NCBI GenBank assembly: GCA_035533755.1
Contig: DATLTC010000010.1
Span: forward strand, 1-64,000
Direction: 5' to 3'
Length of the DNA stretch: 64,000 nucleotides
Source: Gemmatimonadaceae bacterium
Lineage (GTDB): Bacteria > Gemmatimonadota > Gemmatimonadetes > Gemmatimonadales > Gemmatimonadaceae
This document shows positions 4,440-62,054 of this stretch, one piece after another. The notes under the pieces are model-generated. The model ran no database searches. It saw only the letters and a list, made by a program, of their open reading frames with translations, and was not told where the DNA came from. Position numbers and translations under genes: made by a program. The stretch's first letter is position 1. Each line of letters starts with the position of its first letter.

Positions 4440-4515
4440 CTGGCGGGCCGGTGCACCGTCCGTGCGGCGGGTCCGCGCCGGGTGGGGCGGGGCTCTAGCG
4501 CGGGTGGTGTACCGC

Positions 4516-4629: not shown

Positions 4630-7095
4630 ATGCCTCACCGCCACGCTCGCCGCATCGCCCCGCGCGCTCTCCCGGCTGCGTACGTCGCGTTGGTCGCGCT
4701 CGCCCTCCTCGCCATGGCGCCGCCCGTTCGCGCCCAGGGCACCGCCGCCGACTACGCCCGCGCCGCCGCGCTCGATGCCCGATACCGCGGGCTCGCGCTC
4801 GACGTCATGGATCCGCCCGAGTGGATCGAAGGCACCGACCGATTCTTCTATAGAAAGACGGTGGCCGGCGGCTACGCATTCGTCCTCGTGGACGCCACCA
4901 CCCGGGAGAAGCGGCCCGCGTTCGATCACGCCAAACTCGCCGCGGCGCTCTCCGCCGCCATGGACACCACCTTCACCGCCGTCACGCTGCCGTTCGCGCG
5001 CTTCACGTTCACGCCCGGCGAACGCGACATCGAGTTCGTGGACCATGGCTCGCTCTGGCGGTGCGCGCTGGCCGACTACCAGTGCCGCAACACAGGACCG
5101 GCCCTCAACGGACGCGGCGGCCGCGGCGGATTCGGCAACCGCGGCGTGGGCAGCCCGCCGTCGCCGTGGGCGCTTGACGCCGATGCCGACACCGACGCCG
5201 CGCCCGACGAGGGCCCGTGGAACGACGAGTGGTCGGCGGAGGAACTGGCCGAGGCGCAGCAGGCGCCCTCGCTGCGCGAGTCGCCCGACGCCAAACGATC
5301 CCCCGACGGGACGCGCGACGCGTACATCTGGAACTACAACGTCTACGTGCGCGCCGCCGGCGCCAGGTCCGGCACGGAGTTGAGCTACGACGGCTCCGAA
5401 GGGAACTACTACTCGTTCGCGTCCATCGAATGGTCGCCCGACTCGCGCAAGATCGTGGCCTACCGCGTGGAACCGGGCTACCACCGTGAAGTGCACTACG
5501 TGGTGTCCACGCCGCCCGACCAGCTCCAGCCCAAGGACTCGGTGCGCTTCTACCAGAAGCCGGGCGACCGGCTGGACGTGCGCCGTCCGGTGCTCTTCAA
5601 CCTCGATACCCAGCGGCAGGTCGAGGTGAGCGACGCGCTCTTTCCCAATGCGTACAACGTGACGGTGCCGATCTGGTGGAAGGACAGCCGGGCGTTCACC
5701 TTCGAGTACAACCAGCGTGGGCACCAGGTATATCGCGTGATCGAGGTGGACGGCACCACGGGCGCGGCGCGGGCGATCGTGGACGAGCACTCCGACACGT
5801 TCATCGACTACCCGCGCGCCAACGGCAGCCTCACCGATTCCGGCCGGCAGTTCCGCTACGACATCGGCGACGGCAAGCAGATGATCTGGATGTCGGAGCG
5901 CGACGGATGGTGCCACCTCTATCTGTACGACGATGCCACGGGCCAGGTGATCAACCAGATCACCAGGGGACCGTGGGTGGTGCGCGCCGTGGACCGCGTG
6001 GACGAGCAGGCGCGGCAGATCTACTTCAGCGCCGGGGGCATGGACCCGGCCGAGGATCCGTACTTCCTGCACTCGTATCGCATCAACTTCGACGGCACGG
6101 GGCTGGTGTCGTACACGCCGGCCAGGGCCAACCACATCGTCTCGTGGTCGCCCGACCACAAGTACTACGTGGATCTGTACTCGCGGGTGGACCTGGCGCC
6201 CGTCGGGCAGCTGCGCCAGACCAGCGACCAGTCGGTGGTGATGGAACTCGAGCACGGCGACCTCGCGCCGCTCGTCAAGGCGGGGTGGAAGCCGCCCGAG
6301 GTGTTCGTGGCCAAGGGACGCGACGGCAAGACCGACATCTACGGCGTCATCTTCCGGCCCACCAACTTCGATCCGCGCAGGAAATATCCGGTGATCGAGA
6401 ACATCTACGCCGGCCCGCAGGGCTCGTTCGTGCCCAAGAGCTTCCAGGTGCTGAACGGCATGCGCAACGTCGCCGAACTGGGATTCATCGTGGTGCAGAT
6501 CGACGGCATGGGCACCAACAACCGCTCCCGGGCGTTCCACAACACGGCCTGGCACAACCTGGCCGACGCCGGATTCCCCGACCGCATTCTCTGGCACAAG
6601 GCGGTGGCCGCCCGGTACCCGTGGTACGATATCTCCCGCGTGGGCATCTACGGCACCTCGGCCGGCGGCCAGAACGCGATGGCCGCGCTGCTCTTCCACC
6701 CCGAGTTCTACCAGGTGGCCTACTCCGCGTCGGGCTGTCACGACAATCGGATGGACAAGATCTGGTGGAACGAGCTGTGGATGGGGTGGCCGCTGGGGCC
6801 GCAGTACATCGCCAGCTCCAACATGGAGAACGCCTGGCGGCTCAAGGGCAAGCTGATGCTGGTGTTCGGCGAGTTGGACACCAACGTCGATCCGTCGTCC
6901 ACGGTGCAGGTGGTGAACGCGCTGATCAAGGCGAACAAGACGTTCGACCTGCTCGAGATTCCCAACTCGGACCACACGTCGGGCGGCGCCTACGGCGCCA
7001 TGAAGCGTGATGATTTCTTTGTGCACAACCTGTTGGGGGTTGAACCTCCCAACCGCAATGCGGAAGTTCTTACGGCCAATCCCATCCAGCACTGA
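4630..7095 (+). CDS. exported S9 family serine peptidase (DPP IV / prolyl oligopeptidase type)
   Basis: An 821-residue protein. Residues 1-37 form a signal peptide ending at VRAQ. A beta-propeller of the DPP IV N-terminal type covers about residues 100-570, and the alpha/beta-hydrolase domain follows. The catalytic triad is visible: Ser677 in YGTSAGGQ, Asp750 in GELDTNVD and His782 in NSDHTSGG. Such enzymes cut peptides after proline or alanine in the periplasm or outside the cell. A glycine/arginine-rich insert ([13 protein letters not shown]) near residue 160 interrupts the propeller. ATG 4630 was chosen over longer upstream frames because it starts the signal peptide. It is 15 bases from the next gene, with which it is probably co-transcribed. 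Confidence 0.93.
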
Positions 7096-7110
7096 CCCGG
7101 GACCCCACTC

Positions 7111-10100
7111 ATGATCTCCCTTCGATACCGCGCACTGCTCGCCGGCCTGCTCCTCGTGCCGCTCGCTGCCTCGCCGTCGCTCGCGCAGCGGCGCGGACGC
7201 GGCGGCCCGCCGCCCGCTCCCCAACCGTTGCACTTCCAACTCGTCGGTCCCGCGGCCGGCGGACGCATCGCGTCGATCAGCGGCGTGCCCGGCGACACGG
7301 CCATCTGGTACCTCGGCTCGGCATCCGGCGGCGTGTGGAAGTCGGTGGACGGCGGGCACAGCTTCGGCCCGATCTTCGACAAGGAACCCGTGCAGGCCAT
7401 CGGCGCGCTGGCCGTGGCGCCGTCCGATCACGACATCGTGTGGGCGGGCACCGGCGAAGCGTGGGCCATCCGCGACGCCGACGTCATGGGCGACGGCATC
7501 TACAAGTCCACCGACGCCGGCAAGACGTGGAAGAACATGGGGCTCGAGCACACGGGACGCATCGGCCGCATCCTCGTGAACCCGAGCAACCCCGACATCG
7601 TCTACGCGTGCGCGTTGGGCCGCGCCACCGGCCCGCAGCAGGAGCGCGGCGTGTTCCGCACCATGGACGGCGGGGAACATTGGACGCGCGTGCTGTTCGT
7701 GGACGAGAACACCGGCTGCTCGGGGCTCACCCTCGACCTGCACAATCCGGCCGTGCTGTTCGCCGGGATGTGGCAGGTGGTGATGCACACGTACGCCGAG
7801 CTGGGCGGCGGCGCGAGCAGCGGCATCTACGTGTCGCGCGACAGCGGCGCCACCTGGACGCACGTGGAAGACGCCGGGCTCCCGCATTCGCCGCTCGGCA
7901 AGATCGACGTGGCCGTGGCGCCGTCGGGATCCAACCGCGTGTACGCGCTCATCCAGACGCCTAACCAGGGATCGCTCTGGCGCTCCGACGACGGCGGGCA
8001 CGCGTGGCACGTCGTGAGCTGGAACCGCCTGCTCATCGGACGGGCCGGCTACTACATCCATCTCGTGGTCTCGAGCGGCAACGCCGACGAGGTGTACATC
8101 TCCAACAGTTCATTCTGGAAGTCCACCGACGGCGGCAAGACCTTCCAGACCGAGCCGTGGGGCGGCGACAACCACGACATCTGGATGGATCCGCTCGATC
8201 CCGACCATTTCGGCCTCACGTATGACGGCGGGGCGAGCGTGACGACCACGCGCGGCCGCACGATGACGCGGATCACGCTGCCCAACGCCCAGATGTACCA
8301 CGTGGCCGTGGACAATCAGGTGCCCTACTGGGTGTACGGCAACCGGCAGGATGACGGCACGATGCGCGGCCCGAGCGACGGCATGGAAGGCAACGACTTC
8401 CCCGGCGCCACGCGCATCATCAGCTTCGACAGCGCCGGGCAGGTCGCCGCCGGACGTGGTGGGCGCGGCGGTTTCAGCGGCTTCGGCGCGTACGGCCGCG
8501 GCGGGTTCGGGGGCACGCGCACGACGACGTGGGACCACGGCCTGGGCGGGTGCGAGTCCGGGTTCACGATTCCCGATCCCACCGACCCGAACATCGTGTG
8601 GGCCACCTGCTACGCCAACGAGGTGTCGCGCTACGACGCGCGCACCGGCCTGGCGCGCGCCGTGAGCCCGTGGATCCATACGCTGGATTGGGCGCCCAAC
8701 GACGCCAAGTACCGGTGCCATTGGACCCCGCCGCTGGCCATCGATCCGTTCGATCACAACACCGTGTACTACGGCTGCCAGGTGATCTTCAAGACCAGCA
8801 ACGGCGGCCAGAGCTGGAGCGTGATCAGCCCCGACCTGTCGACCAAGGATCCGAGCCGCATCATGTCGTCGGGCGGACTGGTGGGTGACAACCTCGGCCA
8901 GTTCGCGGGCGAGGTGGTGTTCGCCATCGCGCCGTCGTCGATCGAGCGCGGCCTGATCTGGGCCGGCACCAACGACGGCAAGGTCTGGAATACGCGCGAC
9001 GGCGGCAAGAGCTGGAACGACGTGAGCAAGAACGTCGGGATGGCGCCCTGGGGCACGGTGCGCGAGATCTACCCGTCCACGTTCGACGCCGGCACGGCGT
9101 ACATGACGGTGGACTATCACATGATGGACGACCGCAAGCCGTACATCTACAAGACCAGCGACTACGGCAAGTCGTGGACCAGGATCAGCGACGGGTTGCC
9201 GCAGAACCACCCGCTGGACTACGCGATGTCGGTGGCCGAGAATCCGAATCGCAAGGGCATGCTGTTCGCGGGCACGGGGCACGCGTTCTACTACTCGATG
9301 GACGATGGCGCCCACTGGACGCACTTCGACACCGGGCTGCCCGCGTCGCCGGTGACCTGGATCGTGGTGCCCAAGCTGTGGCACGACGTGGTGGTGTCCA
9401 CGTACGGCCGCGGCGTGTTCATCATGCACGACATCACCACCCTGGAGCAGGCCGACCAGGTGCCGGCCAACGCCGACGCGTACTTCTACGTGCCGCGGCC
9501 GGCGTTCCGCATGCCGCGCAGCGGCCAGGCGGAGTTCCGCTATCTCCTGCGCCAGGCGCCCACCGATTCGCTCACCCTGCAGATTGCCGACGCGAGCGGC
9601 GAGGTGGTGCGCACGATGAAGATCCAGGGACGCCGCGGCGAGAACGTCGCGTCGTGGGATCTGCAGTACGACGGGCCCGACCAGGTGGAGTTGCGCACCG
9701 TGGCCCCGGATAACCCGCACATCTTCGACGAACTGCGGTTCAAGGGCAAGGACACGCGGCCGGTGCTGCACTGGGGCATCGAGGGTCCGGTGCGCAATGG
9801 CCCGATGGCCGTGCCCGGCAGCTACTCGGCAACGCTCGTGGTGGACGGCAAGCGGTACACCCGGCCGTTCGAGCTGCTGGCCGATCCGAAGATCGCCAGT
9901 TCGCAGGCCGACCTCGAGGCGTCGCTCAAGGCGCAACTCCGGATCCGGGGCGACATGAACGAGACGGTGAAGATGATCAACCGGCTCGAGGTGATGCGGA
10001 AGACGCTCGAGGATCAGCAGGCGGCGGCGGCCGGCGACGCACCGCGCCGCGAGGCGCTGGCGGCGATGGACCAGAAGATGCTCGGCGTCGAACTCCGGCT

Positions 10101-10368
10101 GCTGTCGCACGAAGATCTGAACAGCGACGACAAGTACTTCGTCCAGGCGGACAAGGTGTATCTCAACCTGGTGTGGCTGTCCGCCGAGGTGGGTCTGGGC
10201 GGCGGCGACGTGGCCGGTGGGGCGGACTACAAGCCCACCAACACGTCGATCGAGGTGCTGCAGACGATCGAGAAGGATCTCGACGCGGCCAAGGTGGCGT
10301 ACGACGCGCTGATGACCAACGACCTGGCCGCGTACAACAAGCTCACGGGAACGAAGATCATTCCGTGA
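7111..10368 (+). CDS. exported BNR/VPS10-like beta-propeller protein
   Basis: A 1085-residue protein with a signal peptide (cleavage near SLAQ, residue 26). At least ten Asp-box repeats can be read, for example GVWKSVDGGHSFG, YKSTDAGKTWKN, FRTMDGGEHWTR, VWNTRDGGKSWND and YKTSDYGKSWTR, which indicates one or two sialidase/sortilin-like propellers over roughly residues 60-770. The C-terminal 300 residues hold an Ig-like strand region and a helical segment around MNETVKMINRLEVMRK. These proteins are often labelled glycosyl hydrolase or exo-sialidase, but no catalytic residues of those enzymes are evident, so binding or scaffolding is as likely. A Gly-Arg-Phe-rich insert lies near residues 448-472. 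A paralogue is encoded at 26717-29764. Confidence 0.88.
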   Translation: MISLRYRALLAGLLLVPLAASPSLAQRRGRGGPPPAPQPLHFQLVGPAAGGRIASISGVPGDTAIWYLGSASGGVWKSVDGGHSFGPIFDKEPVQAIGALAVAPSDHDIVWAGTGEAWAIRDADVMGDGIYKSTDAGKTWKNMGLEHTGRIGRILVNPSNPDIVYACALGRATGPQQERGVFRTMDGGEHWTRVLFVDENTGCSGLTLDLHNPAVLFAGMWQVVMHTYAELGGGASSGIYVSRDSGATWTHVEDAGLPHSPLGKIDVAVAPSGSNRVYALIQTPNQGSLWRSDDGGHAWHVVSWNRLLIGRAGYYIHLVVSSGNADEVYISNSSFWKSTDGGKTFQTEPWGGDNHDIWMDPLDPDHFGLTYDGGASVTTTRGRTMTRITLPNAQMYHVAVDNQVPYWVYGNRQDDGTMRGPSDGMEGNDFPGATRIISFDSAGQVAAGRGGRGGFSGFGAYGRGGFGGTRTTTWDHGLGGCESGFTIPDPTDPNIVWATCYANEVSRYDARTGLARAVSPWIHTLDWAPNDAKYRCHWTPPLAIDPFDHNTVYYGCQVIFKTSNGGQSWSVISPDLSTKDPSRIMSSGGLVGDNLGQFAGEVVFAIAPSSIERGLIWAGTNDGKVWNTRDGGKSWNDVSKNVGMAPWGTVREIYPSTFDAGTAYMTVDYHMMDDRKPYIYKTSDYGKSWTRISDGLPQNHPLDYAMSVAENPNRKGMLFAGTGHAFYYSMDDGAHWTHFDTGLPASPVTWIVVPKLWHDVVVSTYGRGVFIMHDITTLEQADQVPANADAYFYVPRPAFRMPRSGQAEFRYLLRQAPTDSLTLQIADASGEVVRTMKIQGRRGENVASWDLQYDGPDQVELRTVAPDNPHIFDELRFKGKDTRPVLHWGIEGPVRNGPMAVPGSYSATLVVDGKRYTRPFELLADPKIASSQADLEASLKAQLRIRGDMNETVKMINRLEVMRKTLEDQQAAAAGDAPRREALAAMDQKMLGVELRLLSHEDLNSDDKYFVQADKVYLNLVWLSAEVGLGGGDVAGGADYKPTNTSIEVLQTIEKDLDAAKVAYDALMTNDLAAYNKLTGTKIIP

Positions 10369-10424
10369 TCAGGGCGCGGTAGGCCGTGGCCCGTGATCCG
10401 CGGGCCGCGTACAGTGGAAAATGC

Positions 10425-10464
10425 ACAGCGGGGAGTGGGCGGTGATCCGCCCACTCCCCGCTGT
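10425..10464. terminator. perfect 18-bp hairpin between convergent genes
   Basis: ACAGCGGGGAGTGGGCGG (10425-10442) pairs perfectly with 10447-10464 around a four-base TGAT loop. It lies between the convergent ends at 10368 and 10494, where a bidirectional terminator is expected. There is no strong T-tract on either side. Confidence 0.65.
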
Positions 10465-10493
10465 CCGTCTGCTGTCTGCCGTGTACTGCGGCG

Positions 10494-12884
10494 CTATCTT
10501 CCCCGTCCGAACGCGTTGGCCGGCGGCTTCATCAGATATTCGTGCGGCGGCGTGGCGCCCATGAGATACCGGACGAAGTAGTCCCACCGGCGGCGCGTCA
10601 TGTAGTTGGTGGCGTCGCCGTAGCCGTGCGGCTTGTTGGGGATCATGATCAGGTCGAAGTCCTTGTTGTACTTGATCAGCGAATCCACCACGAGCAGCGT
10701 GTTGTACGGGGGCACGTTGTTGTCCATCGTGCCGTGCGCCAGGAGCAGGTGGCCCTTGAGGTTCTTGGCCACCGACTCGTTGGACTGCGCGTCGTAGCTC
10801 CAGGTGCCGTCGGGGAGCTTCACGTCCAGCCCCTGCCACTTCTCGCCCCAGTCGTCCTCGTACTCCGCCTGGTCGTGATTGCCCGACTCGGAAACGCCGA
10901 CCTTGAAGAAGTCGGGATAGCGGAACATCGCGTCGGCCGTGGCCAGCCCGCCGCCCGAATGGCCGTAGATGCCGGCCCGGGAGATGTCGATGTACTTGTA
11001 GCGCTGGGCGAGTTGCTTCATGCCCGTCACCTGATCGGGCATGCCGCCATCGACGCCCATCTTGCCGTAGTACTCGGCCTGGAAGGAGTGCGAGCGCATG
11101 GGCGTGCCCATGGCGTCGATCTCGACCACCACGAAGCCCAACTCGGCCAGGGCCTGATCGTCGCCGCGCGCCGGCGTGAAGCTGCGCGTGCCCACGCTGC
11201 CCGTCTGCGGGCCCGGGTAGATATGGTTGACGATCGGGTACTTCCTGGCCGGATCGAGGTGCGTGGGCGTGAACATCAGGCCGTACAGATCGGTCTTGCC
11301 GTCGCGCGCCTTGACGATGATCGTCCGCGGCGGCTTCCAGCCGGTGGCGAGCAGGCGCGAGATGTCCTCCTTCTCGAGATGGGCCACGAGCGTGCCGTTC
11401 TCATCGCGCAGCACCGACACCGCCGGCGTCTGCGGCGTGGAATAGGTGTCCACGAAGTACCGCCCATCGGGCGCCAGCTGCACCGTGTGATTGGCGCTGT
11501 CGGGCGTGAGCGACCGGAAATCGGAGCCGTCGAACTTCACGCTGTAGAAGTGCACGAAGTACGGGTCGCCCTTCTCGCGCCCCGCGGCCGTGAAGAAGAT
11601 GCGGCGGTTGGGCTGATCCACGCGCAGCACCTGGAGCACCTTCCAGTCGCCGCTCGTGATCTGGTTCTTGAGCTTGCCGGTGGCGAGGTCATAGAGGTAG
11701 AGGTGCCCCCAGTTGCTGCGCTGGGAGTACCAGATGACCTCGTTGGACGTGGGCAGATAGTGCCAGTTCACCATGTCGAAGCCCGACTCGAAGAAGTCGG
11801 GGACCTTCTCCTCCATGATATCGCGCACGGCGCCGGTGGCGGCGTCGGCCACGCGCAGATTCTCGTCGCGATGGTCGCGCGACGTGGAGAGGAACGCCAG
11901 CGTCTTGGAGTCGGGGCTCCATTCGGCGTCGGTGAGCGTGCCGCCGCAGGAGATGTCGTCGCAGATCGAGGTGCGGTGCTGATCGGGGGGCATCTGGAGG
12001 CGGGTCACCTTGCCGTCGTCCACGTTGATGATCACGCGCTGGATCATCGTGATGATGCTGTCTCCGGGCAGCGGGTACTTCCACGCGTGGAGGATGGGAT
12101 GGCCCACGCGGGTCTCCACCAGATACATGTCGCCATCGTTGCGCTGATCCTGCTGGTAGGTGGCGACCTGCTTGGAGTCGGGCGACCAGAGGACGATGGG
12201 GCGGTCGCTGCTGGTCCAGCCGGCGTTGTCGGTGGCGTAGCCGAAGTTCTCCACGCCGTCGTGCGTGAGCTGGGTGACCTGTCCGGTGGCGATGTCGCGC
12301 ACGTAGAGGTTCCAGTCGCGGATGAACACCGCCTTGGTGCCGTCGGGGGACAGGGACTCGGGCGGCTGGCCGGGCGCGCCGCCGCGGCCTCGACCGCCGC
12401 GCCCGAGCGCGCCGCGTCCGCCGCGGCCCGTGGCCGCGCCCACGTCGGCGCAGTGGTTGCCGCCCACGTCGCAGCTGTAGTGCCGGGCGCCGGCGTCGAA
12501 CGACACCGTGCGGCCGTCTTCGGAGAGGTCGATGCTGAAGAAGGGCAGGTGGTTGGCGTCGTACGAGGTGCCGGAGGCCGCGGAGAGCGCGGCCGCGACC
12601 TTTGCCTGGTTGAACGCCGGCTCGCGCGTGGCGTGGGCCGGGTCGACGAGGATGAACTGCTCTCCGTTCGGCGTCGTGGTGCGGTACCAGAAGCGGTCGC
12701 CGGAGAGCCAGGTGGGATTCACCGTGCCGCCGAACACGAGCGAGCTGGTGTAGTAGCCCATGAACTTCTCGGCGCGGGCGTAGTCGGCGGTGGTGATGAT
12801 GCGCGGCTGTTGGGCGGCGAGGCTCCGGGGAGCGGCGGGGGAGAGCGCGACCAGCGTCGCGAGAAGCGTGACTCGATATCGCAT
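10494..12884 (-). CDS. exported S9 family serine peptidase (DPP IV type), second copy
   Basis: A 796-residue relative of the enzyme at 4630-7095. A signal peptide (residues 1-24, ending SLAAQ) is followed by a DPP IV-type propeller and the hydrolase domain. The triad is Ser643 in YGHSGGGLA, Asp721 in HGTMDNNVP and His753 in PNKPHGYGD. Near residue 160 there is a run of RGG repeats (GRGGRGALGRGGRGRGG), placed like the insert of the first enzyme. I use the ATG at 12884, with GAGG six bases before it, rather than a TTG four codons upstream. It converges on the BNR gene and shares a terminator hairpin with it. Likely role: extracytoplasmic peptide breakdown. Confidence 0.93.
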   Translation of the reverse strand: MRYRVTLLATLVALSPAAPRSLAAQQPRIITTADYARAEKFMGYYTSSLVFGGTVNPTWLSGDRFWYRTTTPNGEQFILVDPAHATREPAFNQAKVAAALSAASGTSYDANHLPFFSIDLSEDGRTVSFDAGARHYSCDVGGNHCADVGAATGRGGRGALGRGGRGRGGAPGQPPESLSPDGTKAVFIRDWNLYVRDIATGQVTQLTHDGVENFGYATDNAGWTSSDRPIVLWSPDSKQVATYQQDQRNDGDMYLVETRVGHPILHAWKYPLPGDSIITMIQRVIINVDDGKVTRLQMPPDQHRTSICDDISCGGTLTDAEWSPDSKTLAFLSTSRDHRDENLRVADAATGAVRDIMEEKVPDFFESGFDMVNWHYLPTSNEVIWYSQRSNWGHLYLYDLATGKLKNQITSGDWKVLQVLRVDQPNRRIFFTAAGREKGDPYFVHFYSVKFDGSDFRSLTPDSANHTVQLAPDGRYFVDTYSTPQTPAVSVLRDENGTLVAHLEKEDISRLLATGWKPPRTIIVKARDGKTDLYGLMFTPTHLDPARKYPIVNHIYPGPQTGSVGTRSFTPARGDDQALAELGFVVVEIDAMGTPMRSHSFQAEYYGKMGVDGGMPDQVTGMKQLAQRYKYIDISRAGIYGHSGGGLATADAMFRYPDFFKVGVSESGNHDQAEYEDDWGEKWQGLDVKLPDGTWSYDAQSNESVAKNLKGHLLLAHGTMDNNVPPYNTLLVVDSLIKYNKDFDLIMIPNKPHGYGDATNYMTRRRWDYFVRYLMGATPPHEYLMKPPANAFGRGR

Positions 12885-26716: not shown

Positions 26717-29700
26717 ATGCAGGCATTCACGATTCGCGGCGCGTCGCGCGCCGCGCTCATGCTCCTGGCGCTGCCGCTCGCGGCCGGCGCCCAACGCGTG
26801 ACCTACGACTCGGCGCTCTGGTCGGGGATGCACTACCGGATGATCGGGCCCGAGCGCGGCGGACGCGTGACGACCGTCACCGGCGTGCCCTCGCAGCCGC
26901 GCACCTTCTACATGGGCACCACGGGCGGCGGCGTGTGGAAGACCACCGACGCCGGCGCCTCCTGGCGCAACGTCACCGACGGCTTCCTTGCCGTGGCGTC
27001 GATCGGGGCGGTGGAGGTGTCGCGGTCCGATCCGAACATCGTGTACGTGGGCACCGGCTCGTCCAAGATCCGGAGCAACGTCTCGATCGGTCGCGGCCTC
27101 TACAAGTCCACCGACGGCGGGCATTCGTGGGCCTTCGTGGGGCTCCAGGCGGTGGGCCAGATCGCCACCGTGCGCATCGACCCCACCGATCCCGACCTGG
27201 TGTACGTGGCCGCGCAGGGTAATCCGTTCGTGCCCAACGTGGAGCGCGGCGTCTATCGCACCAGGGACGGCGGCAAGAGCTGGCAGAAGATCCTCTACGT
27301 CTCCGACAGCACCGGCGCCACGGACCTCGAACTGCAGCCCGGCCATCCCGGCGTGATCTTCGCCGCGATGTGGCACGGCCAGCGCAAGCCGTGGACCATC
27401 GTCAGCGGCGCGTACGAGGGCGGCATCTACAAGAGCAGCGACGGCGGGGACAGTTGGACCAAGCTGGGCGGCGGACTGCCCGATCAGCTGTTCGGCCGCA
27501 GCAACGTCGCGATCTCGCGGGCGATGCCCAACCGGATCTACGCGCTGATCGAGGCCAAGCCGGGCGGCGGGCTGTACCGCTCCGAGGATTCCGGCGCCAC
27601 GTGGACGCTGGTGAATGCGTCGCCGAGCCTGTGGACGCGGCCGTTCTACTACACCACGCTGGGCGTGGATCCCAACGATCCGGACGTGGTGTACGTGGGC
27701 GACGAGGGCTGGTTCAAGAGCACCGACGGCGGCAAGACCTTCCGCAGCGAGCCGGTGCCGCACGGCGACAACCATGACCTCTGGATCAATCCCGACAACT
27801 CCGACGCGATGATCCAGTCCAACGACGGCGGCGCCAACGTCTCGCTGGACGGCGGCAGGACGTGGAGTTCGCAACTCAATCAGCCCACGGCCGAGATCTA
27901 CCAGGTGGCGGTGGACAGCCAGTATCCGTACCGCGTGTACGGTGCGCAGCAGGACGACAACACACTCATCGTGCCCAGCCTGCCGCTGGGCAACGGGCAG
28001 GAGTGGCGCGAGGGCCCGGGGTGCGAGACGGGGCCGATCATCCCCAACACGCTCAACCCCGACACCGTGTACGGCTCGTGCAAGGGGCAGTTCAGCCGCC
28101 TCAACTTGAAGACGGCCAACGAGCAGCAGTACTGGGTGGGCGCCCAGTCGCTGTACGGTAACGGCGGCGCCGAGCTGATCTATCGCTTCCAGCGCGTGTC
28201 GCCCATGGAGGTGTCGCCGTACGATCCGAACACCGTGTACTACGGCTCGCAGTACGTCCATCGCACGCGCGACGAAGGCGTGACGTGGACGCGCATCAGC
28301 CCCGACCTGACCTGGAATCCGAAAGGCGAGCCGCAGGAGGCGAGCGGCACGCCGATCACGCGCGATGCCACCGGCGAGGAGGTGTACAGCACGCTGTATT
28401 CCATTCGCGAATCGCCGGTCAAGCGCGGCATCATCTGGACCGGCTCCAACGACGGCCTCGTGTACGTCACGCGCGACGACGGCAAGACGTGGACGAACGT
28501 GACGCCCAAAGGGCTCCAGCCCGGCGGTCGCGTGCAGAACATCGAGCCGAGCCCGCGGCGGCCGGGGTCTGCGTACGTCGCCATCTACCGCTACCTGCTC
28601 GGCGACTTCGCGCCGTACATCTACCGCACCGACGACTACGGCGCGTCGTGGACGCTGCTCACCAACGGGACGAACGGCATCCCCGGCGACTCGCCCACGC
28701 GCGTGGTGCGCGAGGATCCCGATCGCGCCGGCCTCCTGTACGCCGGCACCGAATTCGGGATGTACGTCTCGTTCGACAACGGCGCGCACTGGCAGTCGTT
28801 CCAGATGAACCTGCCGGTCACGCCCATTACCGACATCAAGGTGGCGCACAACGACCTCGTGATCTCCACGCAGGGCCGGTCGTTCTGGATTCTCGACAAC
28901 CTCTCCCCGCTGCACCAACTCACGGCGCAGGTGGCGCACTCGGCCGCGCATCTGTTCACGCCGGAACAGGCCGTGCGGCACGGGGCGCGCGCCGGGTTCG
29001 GCGGCGGCCGCGGCGCCGCGGGCCCGGAGTATCCGGCGCCCGGTGCGCAGATCGACTACTACATCGGGTCGCCGCCGGCCGGCGACGTGGTGCTCCAGAT
29101 CCTGGACGGCTCGGGAACGGTGATCCAGACGTTCTCGAGCGCCGCCCCGGCTGCGGTGGGCCGTGGTGGTGGGGAGGGGGGATTCCGCGGCCGGCCCGCG
29201 GCGGCGCGTGTGGAGAAGACGGTCGGCATGCACCGCTTCACCTGGGACCTCCGCTATCCCGGACCCTGGGAGAGCCCGGCGCGTCCCCAAGGACCCAACG
29301 GCCCGATGGCCGCGCCGGGCCGGTACTCGGTGCGCCTCACGGTCGGCTCGTATACCAGCACGCAGGCGTTCACGCTGATCGAGGATCCGCGCGTCACCAG
29401 CGACGGCGTGACCAGGGCCGATCTGCGGGCGCAGTTGGCCCACAACCTGCGGGCGCGCGCGTTGGTGAGCGACGTCAACCAACTCGTGGCGCGGGTGACG
29501 GCGGCCCAGGACCGGCTGCGCGGGGCCACGGGTGCCGCAGCCGATACCTTGGCCAAGGTCACGGAACTGGCCAGCCATCTGGTCACGCCGGGCATTCGGT
29601 ATAGCAAGCCCGAGCTGCAGACCCACATCACGTATCTGTACGGCATGACCAACGACGCGGACCAGAAGGTCGGACGCGACGCCGTGGAGCGTTACGCGGT

Positions 29701-55580: not shown

Positions 55581-56837
55581 TCATTCGTAGCGCAACGCCT
55601 CCACGGGGTCCAACTGCGCCGCGCGACGCGCCGGCAGCACGCCGAATATCAGCCCGATCCCCACCGACACGGTGACCGCGATCAGGGTCAGGTTCACCGG
55701 CGCCGAGGCGTTGATGTGCATGGCCGCGGTGGCCACGCGGCCCAGGCCGAGTCCGACGACGACCCCGATCACGCCGCCGGCGCCGGTGAGCGTGGCCGCC
55801 TCCACCAGGAACTGCTGCAGGATGTCGCGGCGCGTGGCGCCCACCGCCTTGCGCAGGCCGATCTCGTGCGTGCGCTCGGTGACGCTGATCATCATCACCG
55901 CCATCACCCCGATGCCTCCCACGAGCAACGCCACCGCGCTCAGCACGATCATGACCAGAAAGAACACGCCGGTGAGCTTGTTGAATACGTCGAGGATCTG
56001 ATCCTGCGTGAGCAGGTCGAAGGTGTCATGGTCGGCGGGGCGCAGCCGGCGCGCCTCGCGCAGCGTCACGATCACCGCGCCCTGCGCCTCGTCCAACGGC
56101 ACGCCGGCGCGCGGCTTGACCGGAATGAACACCATGTTGGTCTTGTCGAGCGTGAACTGGTGATCGAGCATCTGATACGGCACGATGGCCACGATGTTCT
56201 GGCCCGGCGGGTTGAAGATGTTCGCGGCGGGCTGGTACAGGCCCACGACCTGCACCGGCTTGCCGCCCACGTGCACCCACTTGCCCATCGGGTCGATGCT
56301 GCCGAACAGCTTGCGCGCCACGTCCACGTCGATGACGACCACCGACGACCCGGTGCGTTCCTCGGCGCGGGTGAACCACCGGCCCTCGGCCAGGCTGCCG
56401 CCCTGGATGTCGGTGAAGTGCGCATCGGCGCCGATGACCGCCTGCGGCTGCGTGCGGACGCCGTCGTACTCCACGCGGGCAATGTACTGCCCCCAGATGC
56501 CCGCATACCCGACCTCGGGCAGGGCCTGGATGCGCGCCGCCTCGTCGGGCGTGAGGTCGGGGCGCGCGCGCACCCACTTGGGCAGGTCCTGCGGATTGAG
56601 CGGCGTCTGCGAGAACACCTTCATCACGTAGAAGGTGGTGGGGCCGGCGATCTCGATCGTGTGGATGATCTGCTCCTGGATGCCCTGCACGATCGACGCC
56701 ATCGCCATCACCGTGGACACGCCGATGACGACGCCGAGGATGGTGAGCCCGGACCGCGTCTTGCTCACGCGGAGCGAGTCCACCGCGACGGCCACGTTTT
56801 CGCGGAAACTGTCGGAGACGCGGCGCCAGTGGCTCAC
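55581..56837 (-). CDS. MacB-like ABC transporter permease, type A, pair 3
   Basis: A 418-residue permease of the MacB/FtsX fold. There is one N-terminal helix (TRSGLTILGVVIGVSTVMAM), a large extracytoplasmic domain (about 45-270) and three C-terminal helices. TERTHEIGLRKAVGA is the cytoplasmic coupling motif and LDPVEALRYE the C-terminus shared by all three type A permeases here. It lacks the double-Cys loop of the other two. Ten bases separate it from its type B partner. MacB-like pumps use a mechanotransmission mechanism on periplasmic substrates; the cargo is unknown. Confidence 0.92.
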   Translation of the reverse strand: MSHWRRVSDSFRENVAVAVDSLRVSKTRSGLTILGVVIGVSTVMAMASIVQGIQEQIIHTIEIAGPTTFYVMKVFSQTPLNPQDLPKWVRARPDLTPDEAARIQALPEVGYAGIWGQYIARVEYDGVRTQPQAVIGADAHFTDIQGGSLAEGRWFTRAEERTGSSVVVIDVDVARKLFGSIDPMGKWVHVGGKPVQVVGLYQPAANIFNPPGQNIVAIVPYQMLDHQFTLDKTNMVFIPVKPRAGVPLDEAQGAVIVTLREARRLRPADHDTFDLLTQDQILDVFNKLTGVFFLVMIVLSAVALLVGGIGVMAVMMISVTERTHEIGLRKAVGATRRDILQQFLVEAATLTGAGGVIGVVVGLGLGRVATAAMHINASAPVNLTLIAVTVSVGIGLIFGVLPARRAAQLDPVEALRYE

Positions 56838-56847
56838 GCGGGCATCC

Positions 56848-58089
56848 TCATTCGGCGTGCAGCGCCGCGACGGGGTCGAGGCGCGCCGCGCGCACCGCCG
56901 GGTACACCCCGAAGATCACGCCCACGCCGGCGCCCAGCGTCAGCGCCAGCACCACCGACCAGAGCGTGACGCGGGCCGGCAGCGGCGACAGCACGGTGAT
57001 CGCCTGCGCGAACAGGAACCCGCCCCCGGCGCCCAGCGCGCCGCCGAGCGTGGCGAGCATCACCGCCTCGGCCAGGAACTGCCGGCGGATGTCGCGCTGC
57101 GTGGCGCCCACCGACTTGCGGATGCCGATCTCGTGCGTGCGCTCGCGCACCGCCATGAGCATGATGTTCATGATCACGATGCCGCCGACGACGATCCCGA
57201 TGGCGACCACCGCCGGCACGACGGCGAACAGCACGGCCGTAAGGCTCTTCCAGAAGGCCACGAACGCGTCCGAGGTCTCGACGGAGAAGTTGTCCGGTTG
57301 CCCCGGGCGCAGGTGGTGGGCCACGCGCATCGCCTCCTCGGCGGTGGCCATCGCCGGCGCGATGTCGGCCGCGGCCGCCATCTTCACCGAGACCTGCGTG
57401 GTCTGGCGGCGGCCGTACACGGACTCGAAGGTCGTGATCGGCATCAGCGCGAAGCCGTCGAACGACTGGCCGAGCACGCGCCCCTTGGGCGCGATCGTGC
57501 CGACCACGGTGAACTGCTGGCCGCGGATGCGCACCGGCTGGCCGACGGCCGAGACGCCGTTGAACAGCTTGGTGGCGACGTCGGCGCCGATCGCGACCAC
57601 GTACCGCCGCTCGCGCACGTCGATGTCGGTGATCGGCTGGCCGGTGGTGAAGCGATAGTCCTGGACCGTCTGGTACGGGGCGCTGATCCCGAAGACGAGC
57701 ACGTCGCCCAGCGTCTGGTCGCGCCAGAGGACGTCGGATCGCGGCGTGGGCCAGCCGGAGGTGATCCCCACGGCCTGCGCGCCGGGCAGCGCCTGCTCCA
57801 CGACCGCGGCGTCGGCCATCGTGATCGGCGGTCGCCGGCGGGCCCGATCCATGTCCTCGTCGGAGATGAGCCCGATCTGGATCGGGTCGCGCCGCACCAT
57901 GAAGGAGTTCGCGCCGACCATGTTGTCGGCGATGTTCTCCTTCACGTACGCGTTCATGCCCTGGATGATCGCCACCACCGCCACCAGGAACGCCACGCTC
58001 ACGACGATGCCGAGCAGCGTGAAGAACGACCGCAGCTTGCTCACGCGGATCTGCGTGAACGCCGTGAGGAGCACGTCGGCGAAGCGCAT
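56848..58089 (-). CDS. MacB-like ABC transporter permease, type B, pair 3
   Basis: A 413-residue permease. The N-terminus FTQIRVSKLRSFFTLLGIVV marks the type B form, followed by an extracytoplasmic domain and three C-terminal helices with the coupling motif RERTHEIGIRKSVGA. The C-terminus is LDPVAALHAE. It pairs with the gene at 55581-56837 and is more diverged from the other type B copies than they are from each other. TAGTTT lies a few bases before the ATG at 58089, after a hairpin repeat, so this pair may have its own leaderless transcript. Confidence 0.92.
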   Translation of the reverse strand: MRFADVLLTAFTQIRVSKLRSFFTLLGIVVSVAFLVAVVAIIQGMNAYVKENIADNMVGANSFMVRRDPIQIGLISDEDMDRARRRPPITMADAAVVEQALPGAQAVGITSGWPTPRSDVLWRDQTLGDVLVFGISAPYQTVQDYRFTTGQPITDIDVRERRYVVAIGADVATKLFNGVSAVGQPVRIRGQQFTVVGTIAPKGRVLGQSFDGFALMPITTFESVYGRRQTTQVSVKMAAAADIAPAMATAEEAMRVAHHLRPGQPDNFSVETSDAFVAFWKSLTAVLFAVVPAVVAIGIVVGGIVIMNIMLMAVRERTHEIGIRKSVGATQRDIRRQFLAEAVMLATLGGALGAGGGFLFAQAITVLSPLPARVTLWSVVLALTLGAGVGVIFGVYPAVRAARLDPVAALHAE

Positions 58090-58104
58090 GGAAGGAAACT
58101 ACAC

Positions 58105-58186
58105 GTAGGACGGTCGGAGAGTAGGACGGATGACTGCGCAACGCCGTTCCCCACGACCCCCCTACCACCCTACCGTCCTACTCTCA
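58105..58186. repeat. dispersed GTAGGACGG hairpin repeat, copy 6 (inverted)
   Basis: A flipped copy with core CGCAACGCCGTTCCCC. GTAGGACGG units lie on the left and CCCTACCGTCCTAC on the right. It separates permease pair 2 from pair 3. Confidence 0.8.
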
Positions 58187-58203
58187 ATGCGCGCACCGCC
58201 CTC

Positions 58204-59457
58204 TCACTCGTACCTGAGCGCTTCCACTGGGTCGAGGCTCGCCGCGCGCACCGCGGGCAGCAACCCGAACACGATCCCCGCGAACGCACTGCCCAGCACG
58301 GCGATCATGATCGCCGCCGGGGGCGTGGTGGCGTCGATGGGCGTGGCGTGGCGCACGACGTAGGTGATCGCCCCGCCGATCACCAGCCCCGCCGCGGCGC
58401 CGAGCGTGGTCAGCGTGGCCGCCTCCACCAGGAACTGCCAGAGGATCACGCCGCGCGTGGCGCCCAGCGCCTTGCGCACCCCGATCTCGCGCGTGCGCTC
58501 GGTGACGCTGATCATCATGATCGCGATCACGCCCACGCCGCCCACCAGCAGGCCGATGGCCGACAGCGTGATCATGACCAGGAAGAACACGCCCACGATC
58601 TTGTTGTACAGCTCGAGGATCTTCTCGGGCGTGGAGACGAAGAAGTCGTTCTGCGCGGCCGGGTGGAGATGCCGCGTGACGCGGAGCAGGGCGATCACCT
58701 CGTCCATCGCCGCGTCGCGGTCCACGCCCGGCTGCGGCTTGACGGTGAGGTCGAGCCAGCGCAGCCCGAAGTTGAGCCGGCGGTAGGCGGTGAGGATCGG
58801 CACCACGACCTTGCCGTTGTCGCCGCTGTCGAACGCGTTGGGGATCGGGTCGTACACGCCGATGACGGTGAATTCGTTGCCGTTGAGCCGCACCGTCTTG
58901 CCCACGGGGTCCTCGCCCAGGAACAGCTTGTCCACGATCTTCGAATTGATGAGCGCCACCGGCGCGCCGGCGTCGTTCTCCTGCGGCGTGAAGTTGCGGC
59001 CGAGCGAGATGTCGCCCCCCGCCACGTCGAACCACTCCGGCGTATAGCCGTCCACGGATACGGCGCCCAGCTCGCGGTCGGCGAACTTGATGGCCGCGTT
59101 GGAACTGATGTGCGCCGTCACGGCGCGCACGTCGGGCAGCTGCCCGATCTGCCGGGCCTGGTCGAGCGTGAGCGACGGATTGCGGCGCCACGGACAGGAA
59201 TCGGCCGAGCCGTTGCAGCTGTTGATCTCGGCCGGCCAGCGCGTGATGAAGAACGTGGTGGGCCCGGCGGCGGCGATGCTGTTGGCCACGCCGGCGTTGA
59301 TGCCGTGCACGGCGGCCGACATCACCGTGACCACGAACACGCCGACGGCGATGCCGAGGATGGTCAGCCCGGCGCGCACGCGGTTGGCGCGGATGGAGTC
59401 GAAGGCCATGACGATGCCCTCGAACAATGCGGAGACTCTGGCCACGAAGCGCTTCAT
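58204..59457 (-). CDS. MacB-like ABC transporter permease, type A, pair 2
   Basis: A 417-residue permease: N-terminal helix RAGLTILGIAVGVFVVTVM, extracytoplasmic domain, three C-terminal helices, coupling motif TERTREIGVRKALGA, C-terminus LDPVEALRYE. Near residue 80 it has SCNGSADSCPWRRNP, a short Cys-bounded loop also seen in the type A protein of pair 1 but not of pair 3. One base separates it from its type B partner upstream. Substrate unknown. Confidence 0.92.
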   Translation of the reverse strand: MKRFVARVSALFEGIVMAFDSIRANRVRAGLTILGIAVGVFVVTVMSAAVHGINAGVANSIAAAGPTTFFITRWPAEINSCNGSADSCPWRRNPSLTLDQARQIGQLPDVRAVTAHISSNAAIKFADRELGAVSVDGYTPEWFDVAGGDISLGRNFTPQENDAGAPVALINSKIVDKLFLGEDPVGKTVRLNGNEFTVIGVYDPIPNAFDSGDNGKVVVPILTAYRRLNFGLRWLDLTVKPQPGVDRDAAMDEVIALLRVTRHLHPAAQNDFFVSTPEKILELYNKIVGVFFLVMITLSAIGLLVGGVGVIAIMMISVTERTREIGVRKALGATRGVILWQFLVEAATLTTLGAAAGLVIGGAITYVVRHATPIDATTPPAAIMIAVLGSAFAGIVFGLLPAVRAASLDPVEALRYE

Positions 59458-59458
59458 G

Positions 59459-60703
59459 TCACTCGGCCCGGATGGCGAGAATGGGGTCGAGCCGCGACGC
59501 GCGGCTCGCGGGATACGCGCCGGCGATGACCCCGATGCCGCCGCCCACCACCACCGAGACCACGATCGACCAGGGCGCTACCGCGGCGGGGAGCGGCGAG
59601 ACCATCGCCACCACCTTGGCCAGCGTGATGCCGAGGCCGACGCCGAGGATGGCGCCGAAGCAGCTCAGCGTGGCGCTCTCGACCAGGAACTGCGCCAGGA
59701 TGTCGCGGCGCCGCGCGCCGAGCGACTTGCGGATGCCGATCTCCCGCGTGCGCTCGGCCACCGCCACGAGCATGATGTTCATGATCACGATCGCGCCCAC
59801 GACCAGCCCGATGGCGGGCAGCACCATGCCGGCGAGCACGAGATAGTGCTCGATGGTCTTCCACTGCGTGAGCGCCGACTCCGAACTCTCCATCACGAAG
59901 TTGTCGGGGTCGGTGGGGTGCAGCTGGTGCCGGTTGCGCATCACCTCGCGCACGATTTCCTCGAGCGGCTGGAACTGCGCCGGCGTGGGGGACTGCACCA
60001 CCACGCCGTAGAGGTTCTGGCGGGCGCCGGTGAGCCGCGACATCTCGGAGTGGAAGGGCGCGATGGCCTGGCGATCGAGATTGAGCCCGAACACGGTGCC
60101 CTGGTGCGTGAACACGCCGATCACGCGGAACGGGAACCGCTGGACCAGCAGCGTGCGGCCCACCGGATCGAGATTGGGGAAGTACTCGGCGGCGAGCGCG
60201 TCGCCGATCACGATCACGTCGGCGCCCACGGCGTCTTCCTGCTCGTCGAACAGGCGGCCCTGGGCCACCGGGAGGTCCTTGATCTTGAAGTACTCGGGCG
60301 TGGCCGCTTCGGCCAGCACCTGGGCGCCGCCGGTGGCGTACCGCGAACTCACGTTCATCCAGCGCACGTCGTGCATGGCCCAGCGCGTGCCGTCGGGCAG
60401 CGCCGCCTTGACCGCCATCGCGTCGGCGATCGTGATCTTGGGGCGCTGCTGCCACTCCTTCCACTCCTGGTCGGTGACGTTCCCGGTGTTGATGTCGGGG
60501 TACGGCCGCAGGTTGAAGGTGTTGATGCCGAGGAACTTCCCGGCGAAATCCTGCTCCACGTACACGTTCATGCCCTGGACGATGGACACGACCGCGATCA
60601 GGAACATCACGCTGATCATGACGCCGAGCAGGGTGAAGAAGCTCTTCAGCTTCTGGACCCGGATCTGGGCCAGGGCGAGGCGGACGGCTTCGAAAAGCTG
60701 CAC
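59459..60703 (-). CDS. MacB-like ABC transporter permease, type B, pair 2
   Basis: A 414-residue permease with the type B opening AQIRVQKLKSFFTLLGVMIS, extracytoplasmic domain, C-terminal helices, coupling motif AERTREIGIRKSLGARRRD and C-terminus LDPILAIRAE. It is close to the type B protein of pair 1. A near-perfect -35 element (TTGACA) lies in the 91-base gap upstream, so pair 2 may have its own promoter. Confidence 0.92.
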   Translation of the reverse strand: MQLFEAVRLALAQIRVQKLKSFFTLLGVMISVMFLIAVVSIVQGMNVYVEQDFAGKFLGINTFNLRPYPDINTGNVTDQEWKEWQQRPKITIADAMAVKAALPDGTRWAMHDVRWMNVSSRYATGGAQVLAEAATPEYFKIKDLPVAQGRLFDEQEDAVGADVIVIGDALAAEYFPNLDPVGRTLLVQRFPFRVIGVFTHQGTVFGLNLDRQAIAPFHSEMSRLTGARQNLYGVVVQSPTPAQFQPLEEIVREVMRNRHQLHPTDPDNFVMESSESALTQWKTIEHYLVLAGMVLPAIGLVVGAIVIMNIMLVAVAERTREIGIRKSLGARRRDILAQFLVESATLSCFGAILGVGLGITLAKVVAMVSPLPAAVAPWSIVVSVVVGGGIGVIAGAYPASRASRLDPILAIRAE

Positions 60704-60741
60704 GGGCGCGCGGGGTTGGAGACCGGAGGAATCGACTCCAT

Positions 60742-60773
60742 CCCATACGCGGCGCCGGCCGCGAAAGTGTCAA
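60742..60773 (-). promoter_or_regulatory. possible internal promoter before permease pair 2
   Basis: On the minus strand, TTGACA (60773-60768) is a perfect -35. Candidate -10 elements are CGTATG at 18 bases or TATGGG at 20 bases; neither is good. It lies in the only longer gap between pairs 1 and 2. Confidence 0.35.
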
Positions 60774-60794
60774 TTCTTAACGGCGGGGACGGGG

Positions 60795-62051
60795 CTACTC
60801 GTACCTCAGCGCGTCCACGGGGTCGAGCCGCGACGCGCGGGCGGCCGGTAGCAGGCCGAACAGCACGCCCGTCACGGCGCTCGATCCCAGGGCCGCGACG
60901 ATGGCCAGCGGCGGCACGGAGGCCGCCACGGGCGTGTACGACCGCACCACCAGGGCCACGAGGATCCCCGCCACCAGCCCGATCACGGCCCCGATGCCGG
61001 TGAGCGTCACCGCCTCCACCAGAAACTGCCAGAGGATCATGGCGCGAGTGGCGCCCAGCGCCTTGCGCACGCCGATCTCCCGCGTGCGTTCCGTGACGCT
61101 GATCATCATGATCGCCACCACGCCCACGCCGCCCACGATCAGCCCGATGGCCGAGAGCACGATCATCACCAGGAAGAACATGCCGAACACCTTGTTGTAG
61201 GTGTCGAACAGCTTGTCCTGCGTGATGATCGCGAAGTCGTTGTCGGTGGCCGGGCGCAGCTCATGGCGCTGGCGCAGCAGCGCGGTCACGTCGTCGATCG
61301 CCTGATCGCGGCCGGCGGACTCCAGCGGCACCACGGTGATCGAGATCTGGCGGCGGCCCGCGTTGAGCACGCGGAAGGCCGTCTGGATGGGAATGATCGC
61401 CCGCGACCGGTCGCCCCCCGACAGGAAGCTGGCCACGGAATGGTAGATCCCGATCACGTGGAACGGCTCGTCGCGGATCGTGATCACCTTGTCCATCGGG
61501 TCGGAGTCGCCGAACAGCTGCTTGGCCATGATGTCGTTGATCACCACCACCCGCTGTCCGGCATTGGCCTCGTTCTCGGTCCAACTGCGCCCGGGGTACA
61601 GGTCGCCCCCGCCGTCGATGATGATCCAGTTGGACGTGAGGGCGCTGACCTGCGCGGCGCTCAGCGAGCGGTCGGCGTAGCGCACCTGGAACGCCATGTC
61701 CAGCCGCGCGCCGGCCGCGCGCACGCTCGGCAGTTGATCCATGGACGCCTGATCGGCCATCGTGAGCGGCGGGTTGTGGCGCCACTTGCAGGTGGCGTCG
61801 GTGCCGTCGCAGGCTTCGAACGTGATCGGGTAGCGCGACACGAAGAACGTCATCGGACCCGCGGACTCGAGGTCCTTGGCCACGCTGGCGTTGATGCCGT
61901 GCACCGCCGCCGAGATCACCACCACCACGAACACCCCCACGGCGATGCCGAGGATGGTGAGGGCGGCACGCACCTTGTTGGCCCGGATCGACTCGAGGGC
62001 GATGCCGACGCCTTCGCCAAGGTTGAGGATCGTGGAGAGAAGGGAAGCCAT
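60795..62051 (-). CDS. MacB-like ABC transporter permease, type A, pair 1
   Basis: A 418-residue permease: N-terminal helix RAALTILGIAVGVFVVVVI, extracytoplasmic domain, three C-terminal helices, coupling motif TERTREIGVRKALGA, C-terminus LDPVDALRYE. Around residue 80 it has EACDGTDATCKWRHNPPL, matching the Cys loop of pair 2. The coding part begins three bases after the type B gene's stop. It is the closest relative of the type A gene in pair 2. Confidence 0.92.
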   Translation of the reverse strand: MASLLSTILNLGEGVGIALESIRANKVRAALTILGIAVGVFVVVVISAAVHGINASVAKDLESAGPMTFFVSRYPITFEACDGTDATCKWRHNPPLTMADQASMDQLPSVRAAGARLDMAFQVRYADRSLSAAQVSALTSNWIIIDGGGDLYPGRSWTENEANAGQRVVVINDIMAKQLFGDSDPMDKVITIRDEPFHVIGIYHSVASFLSGGDRSRAIIPIQTAFRVLNAGRRQISITVVPLESAGRDQAIDDVTALLRQRHELRPATDNDFAIITQDKLFDTYNKVFGMFFLVMIVLSAIGLIVGGVGVVAIMMISVTERTREIGVRKALGATRAMILWQFLVEAVTLTGIGAVIGLVAGILVALVVRSYTPVAASVPPLAIVAALGSSAVTGVLFGLLPAARASRLDPVDALRYE

Positions 62052-62054
62052 CCG

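Follow-up and report, generated by a model that had tools for sequence, protein, structure and literature searches.

RGG-type loops of predicted disorder in exported peptidases and propeller proteins of Gemmatimonadota: candidate cationic tethers under probable protein-level constraint

Exported peptidases and propeller proteins of a Gemmatimonadaceae bacterium carry RGG-type tracts that are read in frame mainly in exported proteins, are concentrated in a small number of families, are predicted to be disordered, space their arginines regularly, and retain their arginine and glycine residues among close relatives; most of them bear no trace of recent DNA repeats. RGG motifs are familiar chiefly from intracellular RNA-binding proteins, and their presence is taken to indicate RNA binding. 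We propose, with a probability of about 0.4, that the tracts described here form disordered loops at inter-blade or linker positions that tolerate them, and that these loops have been selected and serve as cationic tethers of exported enzymes. Constraint on the tracts at the protein level is probable, an estimate that we lowered slightly in view of the antisense counts given below; if such constraint is granted, a role in tethering is marginally favoured.

The window, that is, the whole stretch of 64,000 nt that was analysed, belongs to a genome of 103 contigs and 3.25 Mb (G000) and encodes four tract-bearing proteins, designated P0001, P0002, P0004, and P0007. P0001 (4630..7095, plus strand; 821 aa counted from the ATG at 4630, with the open frame beginning at 4462) and P0007 (10494..12896, minus strand) are exported S9/DPPIV-type peptidases, both of which have a DPPIV_N propeller plus a Peptidase_S9 domain in Pfam (DPPIV_N 3e-43 and Peptidase_S9 3.7e-38 for P0001, DPPIV_N 1.3e-62 for P0007). 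P0002 (7111..10368, plus strand) and P0004 (26687..29764, plus strand; the ATG at 26687 gives 1025 aa, an ATG at 26717 is a possible alternative, and the open frame begins at 26171) are exported sortilin/BNR proteins that matched the Pfam family Sortilin-Vps10 at 94.3 bits (9.4e-27) and 103.6 bits (1.5e-29), respectively, the curated cut-off being 33. These assignments agree with an earlier, sequence-only reading of the same DNA, which had called two S9 peptidases and two BNR proteins. All four proteins begin with signal-peptide-like N-termini according to our own heuristic (used in place of SignalP), and by this heuristic they lack the intracellular location that is a hallmark of RGG-type RNA-binding proteins. 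No RNA-binding domain was found in the four proteins by Pfam at E 1e-3.

The tracts are located at 5107..5145 (plus strand) in P0001, where 13 residues lie in the linker before SPDG; at 8452..8514 (plus strand) in P0002, where 21 residues lie within a predicted disordered loop (residues 429-471); at 12378..12428 (minus strand) in P0007, where GRGGRGALGRGGRGRGG takes the same linker position as in P0001 and has the lowest model confidence; and at 29156..29197 (plus strand) in P0004, where the RGG-like VGRGGGEGGFRGRP shortly precedes the WDLRY strand. These are the four tracts that had already been located by inspection, the one in P0007 being on the minus strand. Two RG- or GRA-rich tracts had been passed over, namely QRRGRGGPPP, the mature N-terminus of P0002 directly after the signal peptide (7186..7215, plus strand), and the G/R/A-rich GARAGFGGGRGAAG of P0004 (28982..29023, plus strand). 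G- or RG-rich mature N-termini right after the signal peptide also occur in exported proteins of loci L160, L391, and L427. P0001, P0002, and P0007 contain two RGG separated by 0-4 residues, the di-RGG definition that passages of PMC11789052 attribute to Thandapani et al.; P0004 has a single RGG, as read from its sequence, and falls outside this definition. The order and orientation of the gene trio P0001-P0002-P0007 (4462-12896) are kept in a sister genome (G002, C59:12178-20454) and partly in another (G001). Elsewhere in the window, 55584-63296 holds six successive minus-strand genes of ~400 aa each that were classed as membrane proteins; their similar N-termini look MacB/FtsX-like and are of two types that take turns along the row.

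The tracts of the two peptidases occupy a homologous site, in a common linker with a Cys-Cys segment upstream and the first SPDG propeller strand downstream, which bears out the claim of the sequence-only reading that the two tracts fall at the same place in the propeller. By eye, a third S9 paralogue (contig C71) has one tract at that linker site and a second in the hydrolase part, and in a sortilin paralogue (contig C70) tracts occupy the sites where P0002 and P0004 have theirs, one of them preceding its WDLRY. The AlphaFold model of P0007 (mean pLDDT 77) drops to a mean of 29 at residues 161-170, between strands 149-154 and 180-182, and that of P0002 (mean pLDDT 81) drops to 22-31 at residues 431-470, between strands 416-421 and 486-488. 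These low values support disorder of the loops in P0007 and P0002, for which the sequence-only reading had suggested modelling, and the loops are predicted to be sited between propeller blades; given disorder and an inter-blade position, they would probably be exposed. The nearest solved fold of P0007 found with Foldseek is bacterial DPP IV, and the window peptidases have the fold and the catalytic domain in common with the S9 DPP IV family (2ecf, 2eep, 5yp1). The three best phmmer matches begin at residue 182, past the tract, and the matches to 2ecf and 5yp1 begin inside it, at residues 170 and 159; compared with the S9 DPP IV structures, the RGG linker is an extra element present in some lineages. 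The predicted fold of P0002 is nearest to GH74 tandem propellers, the best Foldseek matches being GH74 xyloglucanases; at only 13-16% identity, a TM of ~0.4 by query, and a large rmsd, these matches do not imply enzyme activity of P0002. A propeller model is shared by P0002, the Sortilin-Vps10/BNR proteins, and the GH74 fold, and the RGG loop is an extra relative to these propellers.

Across the window's genome, a DNA pattern coding for RGGRGG matched 87 places, all of which were examined, and a reversed control pattern matched 61. The motif is in frame at 29 of the 87 places (16 in exported proteins, nine in N-terminally cut ones, three in proteins without a signal peptide, and one in a membrane protein), in frame +2 at 37 (four exported, 20 without a signal peptide, 10 membrane, and three cut), and antisense at 18 (nine exported, four without a signal peptide, four membrane, and one cut), with the remaining three intergenic or uncalled. 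All places outside the reading frame together comprise 13 exported, 38 not exported, and four cut. With cut genes left out, the exported share in frame exceeds that of all other frames (p = 3.6e-5); it also exceeds that of frame +2 alone (p = 7e-7), and the comparison with antisense alone gave p = 0.08. Several of the places overlap within one gene; counted by gene, the 20 in-frame genes are divided into 10 exported, seven cut, two without a signal peptide, and one membrane (10 vs 3, p = 0.001). One in-frame gene without a signal peptide (contig C96) looks lipoprotein-like by eye. The frame counts thus show a preference of the in-frame reading for exported genes, which the antisense reading shares less clearly, and the contrast between the in-frame reading and the other frames rests on frame +2 (4 exported, 30 not). 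The antisense copies presumably read on the sense strand as proline- or alanine-rich stretches, as we take it from the genetic code. Since the antisense motif is also common in exported genes (9/17 classed), these genes may tolerate GC-rich repeats generally. This count favours the alternative, raised in the sequence-only reading, that slippage of GC-rich DNA repeats creates and maintains the tracts; the copies in frame +2, only 4/34 classed of which are in exported genes, speak against it.

The in-frame genes are concentrated by family. Seven of the 20 are sortilin-type (one assigned below the curated cut-off), four S9, three M14, and one M28, and the five others are a kinase, a DUF1800 gene, a MacB/FtsX gene, and two without a family assignment. 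The peptidase and sortilin families make up 15/20 in-frame genes vs 11/154 exported genes in a sample from this genome classed by BLAST, where they hold 15% of residues (binomial p = 7e-14, or 3e-9 with the 15% residue share); the figure of 11/154 may be a lower bound, since a protein on contig C3 that looks M28-like from a motif was not caught. In the same sample, a tract was found in four of the 11 family members, all four of them window genes, and by BLAST six of the 10 tract-bearing exported proteins fall outside the peptidase and propeller families; beyond the window, 0/6 tract-bearing exported proteins belong to these families. The protein kinase, which carries ARGGRGGRGGRK (G000:C51:18817, L332), is one of the small number of in-frame cases that lack a signal peptide.

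Exported and other proteins were also compared for tracts. Gene calls and the signal-peptide and membrane classes come from our own heuristics, which missed at least three signal-like N-termini judged by eye (C96, L403, L408); many of the sampled genes are truncated by the edge of their locus, some genomes are incomplete, and the 16 named loci of lowest GC were excluded from the exported and cytosolic counts. In a 458-kb sample that includes the window, 80 exported proteins have five tracts vs 0.69 in shuffled sequences, four of the five being those from which the sequence-only reading started, 253 cytosolic proteins have two vs 2.72, and 80 membrane proteins have one vs 0.74. Outside the window and hand-picked stretches of the same genome, a tract is present in 6/139 exported proteins vs 4/479 others (p = 0.011). 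The stretches on C70, C71, and C38, which had been chosen for their paralogues, were left out of this test and of the 154-gene family sample, and were kept in the codon-repeat (64/148) and arginine-spacing counts and in the tract counts across genome samples. Among named loci retrieved for their similarity to P0002, a tract is present in 13/273 exported proteins vs 3/411 others (p = 8e-4); P0002 relatives account for six of those 13, and once every such relative is removed a weak contrast is left (7/213 vs 3/402, p = 0.024). A di-RGG is present in 7/273 exported proteins of these loci vs 0/441 others, N-truncated genes being counted among the others (p = 0.001), and in 3/213 vs 0/402 without the P0002 relatives (p = 0.041). 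Outside the tract, the median net charge per 100 aa is -1.1 in 10 exported proteins with a tract vs -0.7 in other exported proteins; with so little difference, we rejected the idea that the tract compensates for an acidic protein body.

The codons of the tracts bear directly on slippage. Consecutive G or R codons are identical in 64/148 cases in the tracts of the window's genome (expected 70.2 ± 7.0) and in 195/545 cases in orthologue tracts (expected 241.9 ± 11.4), or 117/316 vs 137.2 ± 8.6 with about one row per genus. The arrangement of codons inside the tracts is random, with GGA and GGT raised. An exact in-frame tandem 9-mer was found once in 47 tracts, a set that includes one tract, from row L108 of the P0001 set, that is probably in the wrong frame; the same 47 tracts underlie the orthologue codon-repeat counts and the G-run counts. 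In tract codons of P0001, P0002, and P0007 orthologues, from which the GGA and GGT result also comes, runs of three or more G are avoided (101 vs 149 ± 8.7 expected; 56 vs 86.8 ± 6.7 with about one row per genus), as are runs of four or more (40 vs 83 ± 7.3). The same avoidance led us to reject a further candidate, in which selection acts on a G-quadruplex in the mRNA or DNA and the protein tract is a by-product: RGG codons are guanine-rich, and passages of PMC11789052 propose that those of human proteins form such structures (rG4), so that a link to coding has been published, but G-runs that such selection would favour are depleted here, and we consider the idea extremely improbable.

Aligned tracts tell the same story against slippage as the maintaining force. 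Within genera, the residue is kept at 233/272 aligned G/R tract codons (0.857) vs 0.643 ± 0.024 after shuffling and realignment, 137 of the 233 differing synonymously, and arginine is kept as arginine at 63/77 vs 0.48 ± 0.05 when shuffled; the rows within a genus are related, so these figures describe few independent lineages. An excess of identical neighbouring DNA repeat units, the mark of slippage, was not found overall. The exception is an exported M28 peptidase gene with RGGRGGRGGRGG (G000:C54:68678-68712, L339), where three overlapping matches consist of near-exact 9-nt repeats and where, judging the sequence by eye, recent slippage is likely. Taken with the codon repeats, the rare exact 9-mers, and the avoidance of G-runs, this retention of R and G contradicts the suggestion that GC-rich slippage maintains the tracts. 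Slippage is further favoured by an arginine spacing of three, which corresponds to a 9-nt unit, and by the plausibility of tract birth through short duplications in GC-rich genomes, which favour G, R, A, and P codons; as an account of both origin and maintenance we regard it as unlikely.

The order of arginines within the tracts differs between protein classes. A first test of spacing had picked tracts partly by their RG/GR counts, which biases the choice toward isolated R; the spacing-3 result held when tracts were chosen again by composition only, with both odd L108 tracts removed. In this second set, exported tracts (n = 42) have 21 arginine pairs at spacing 3 vs 12.5 ± 3.2 and nine RR vs 19.7 ± 3.7, and non-exported tracts (n = 23, three of them from N-terminally cut paralogues) have 12 at spacing 3 vs 10.6 and 18 RR vs 19.7. 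Orthologue tracts, taken one per genus (n = 31), have 22 at spacing 3 vs 9.2 ± 2.8.

Relatives of P0007 were found at E 1e-60 in 86/119 genomes, and one copy each from 66 genomes was aligned. The tract is present in 17/66 of these orthologues and absent from 49/66, with at least seven changes of state on a quick tree, and its length varies freely; absence from 49/66 indicates that it is not needed for the basic work of the enzymes. The tract state is uniform in groups g1 (4/4), g14 (3/3), and g5 (2/2), in g19 (3/3, not one clade), and in g40 (4/4, of which three share a clade); g13 is mixed. The sequence-only reading had held that absence from most orthologues, combined with no pattern by subcellular location, would tell against it; absence from most P0007 orthologues is indeed what we found, and a pattern by location does exist in the exported counts. 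A di-RGG occurs in 12/66 P0007, 13/109 P0002, and 6/30 P0001 orthologue rows. In the 109 rows of the P0002 loop, RGG inserts are found in Gemmatimonadota and some Acidobacteriota, with single short RGG stretches in one Aminicenantes row and one Marinimicrobia row, and the P0002-type loops of Bacteroidota rows have neither an RGG nor a K-rich insert. A scan for K-rich counterparts in long ORFs of low-GC loci without gene calls gave scattered matches only.

These alignments also bring in a serious rival, which we consider a real possibility, namely that the loop is a plain flexible spacer coded by GC-rich DNA, which need only be soluble and flexible between blades and has no binding partner. On this account selection for flexibility favours glycine, and the scarcity of lysine and serine codons in these genomes brings in arginine and alanine alongside it. 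As the P0007 linker lengthens (61 rows), it gains mainly glycine (slope 0.55) and no more R (0.12) than A (0.15), which is consistent with a spacer, as are the predicted disorder, the free length, and the gain and loss of the tract. Lysine is likewise missing from the tracts (0/959 residues), which would be odd if only positive charge mattered. The spacer does not predict the RGG order, the avoidance of RR, or the retention of arginine within genera, nor that this order should be confined to exported tracts or the tracts concentrated in peptidases and sortilin-type propellers. It also does not predict the short A/P/S-rich linkers that stand at this site in tract-less P0007 relatives with a similar GC content.

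The distribution of in-frame tracts was extended to other genomes by sampling. In G087, from another family of the same order, 30/65 places were sampled and 28 were in frame (12 exported, 15 cut, one without a signal peptide), corresponding by our own reading to 20 genes, 16 of which are of the peptidase and sortilin type (eight sortilin, one of them matching below the cut-off, three S9, two M28, and one each of M14, M61, and S51). In G043, 30/84 places were sampled and 16 were in frame in 10 genes (own reading), comprising seven peptidase/sortilin genes, two without assignment, and ribosomal protein S5; the exported contrast is absent from this sample (4/4 vs 3/2, p = 0.82). In G028, whose P0007 has no tract, one of 30/90 sampled places was in frame, in PNPase. 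Eight further genomes were sampled at three or four places each. Four Acidobacteria genomes, picked because their P0002 relative has a tract, gave 10/16 places in frame (seven exported, two cut, and one that looks Obg-like from its N-terminus), and one Actinobacterium, two Proteobacteria, and one other member of the Gemmatimonadetes together gave 1/14. The median log2 ratio of RGGRGG to reversed-pattern DNA is 1.13 in the 17 genomes with a P0007 tract vs 0.08 in the 49 without (p = 3e-4, uncorrected for kinship). Samples of G049 and G018 (312 genes) gave a tract in 0/98 exported proteins, which indicates that the trait depends on lineage.

The tracts resemble the RGG/RG (GAR) motif known from RNA-binding proteins of eukaryotes and, in some cases, of bacteria in their di-RGG spacing, their glycine-rich disorder, and some F near RGG; unlike the classical RGG/RG proteins, the carriers here appear from their sequences to be exported peptidases and propellers. 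A moonlighting role, in which the tracts bind RNA or DNA in the cytosol before export as classical RGG proteins do, would accord with the di-RGG spacing and with cytosolic RGG tracts nearby, in the PNPase tail (L460, G028) and in ribosomal protein S5 (L412, G043). Most carriers, however, have a signal peptide and the fold of a secreted enzyme, and as Pfam gave no RNA-binding domain for any of the four proteins of the window, this role is very improbable. In the passages of PMC6821194 that bear on the subject, low-complexity regions of prokaryotes include glycine-rich ones, said to be conserved and functional, arginine is under-represented in such regions, arginine-rich ones are tied to RNA-related proteins, and S/T-rich ones occur in polysaccharide enzymes. 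The tracts described here are likewise glycine-rich low complexity in bacteria, and as R/G-rich regions of exported peptidases they run against the trends given in those passages. Among the matches listed in a search of open-access full text, which leaves subscription journals and preprints outside, no paper dealt with RGG tracts in exported bacterial enzymes.

Under the reading that we prefer, selected cationic tethers, gain or loss of tracts would have happened repeatedly across Gemmatimonadota and Acidobacteriota, the tracts perhaps arising by short duplications and then being kept by constraint at the protein level. The loops would form flexible patches of positive charge by which enzymes are held on a polyanionic surface, for which the cell's own LPS or capsule, matrix DNA or RNA, or an acidic substrate are candidates; a disordered loop with spaced arginines, few acids, and no lysine would be suited to weak, multiple binding of polyanions. 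Such tethering might keep a degradative arsenal near the cell surface or matrix. A broader version, in which RGG is a common extracytoplasmic tag in Gemmatimonadota and Acidobacteriota that clusters exported peptidases and propellers on a polyanionic surface or matrix, is speculative and rather unlikely; if true, it would be an outside counterpart of RGG-driven condensates, with some twenty or more carriers in one genome. The same local pattern as in RNA-binding RGG proteins appears to be selected in exported proteins of two phyla, chiefly of peptide-digesting kinds. If the loops do not tether, they are a warning that a protein's RGG sequence is by itself no proof of RNA binding; if they do, they would be a simple and portable kind of anchor, which could account for the retention of exported peptidases close to such bacteria.
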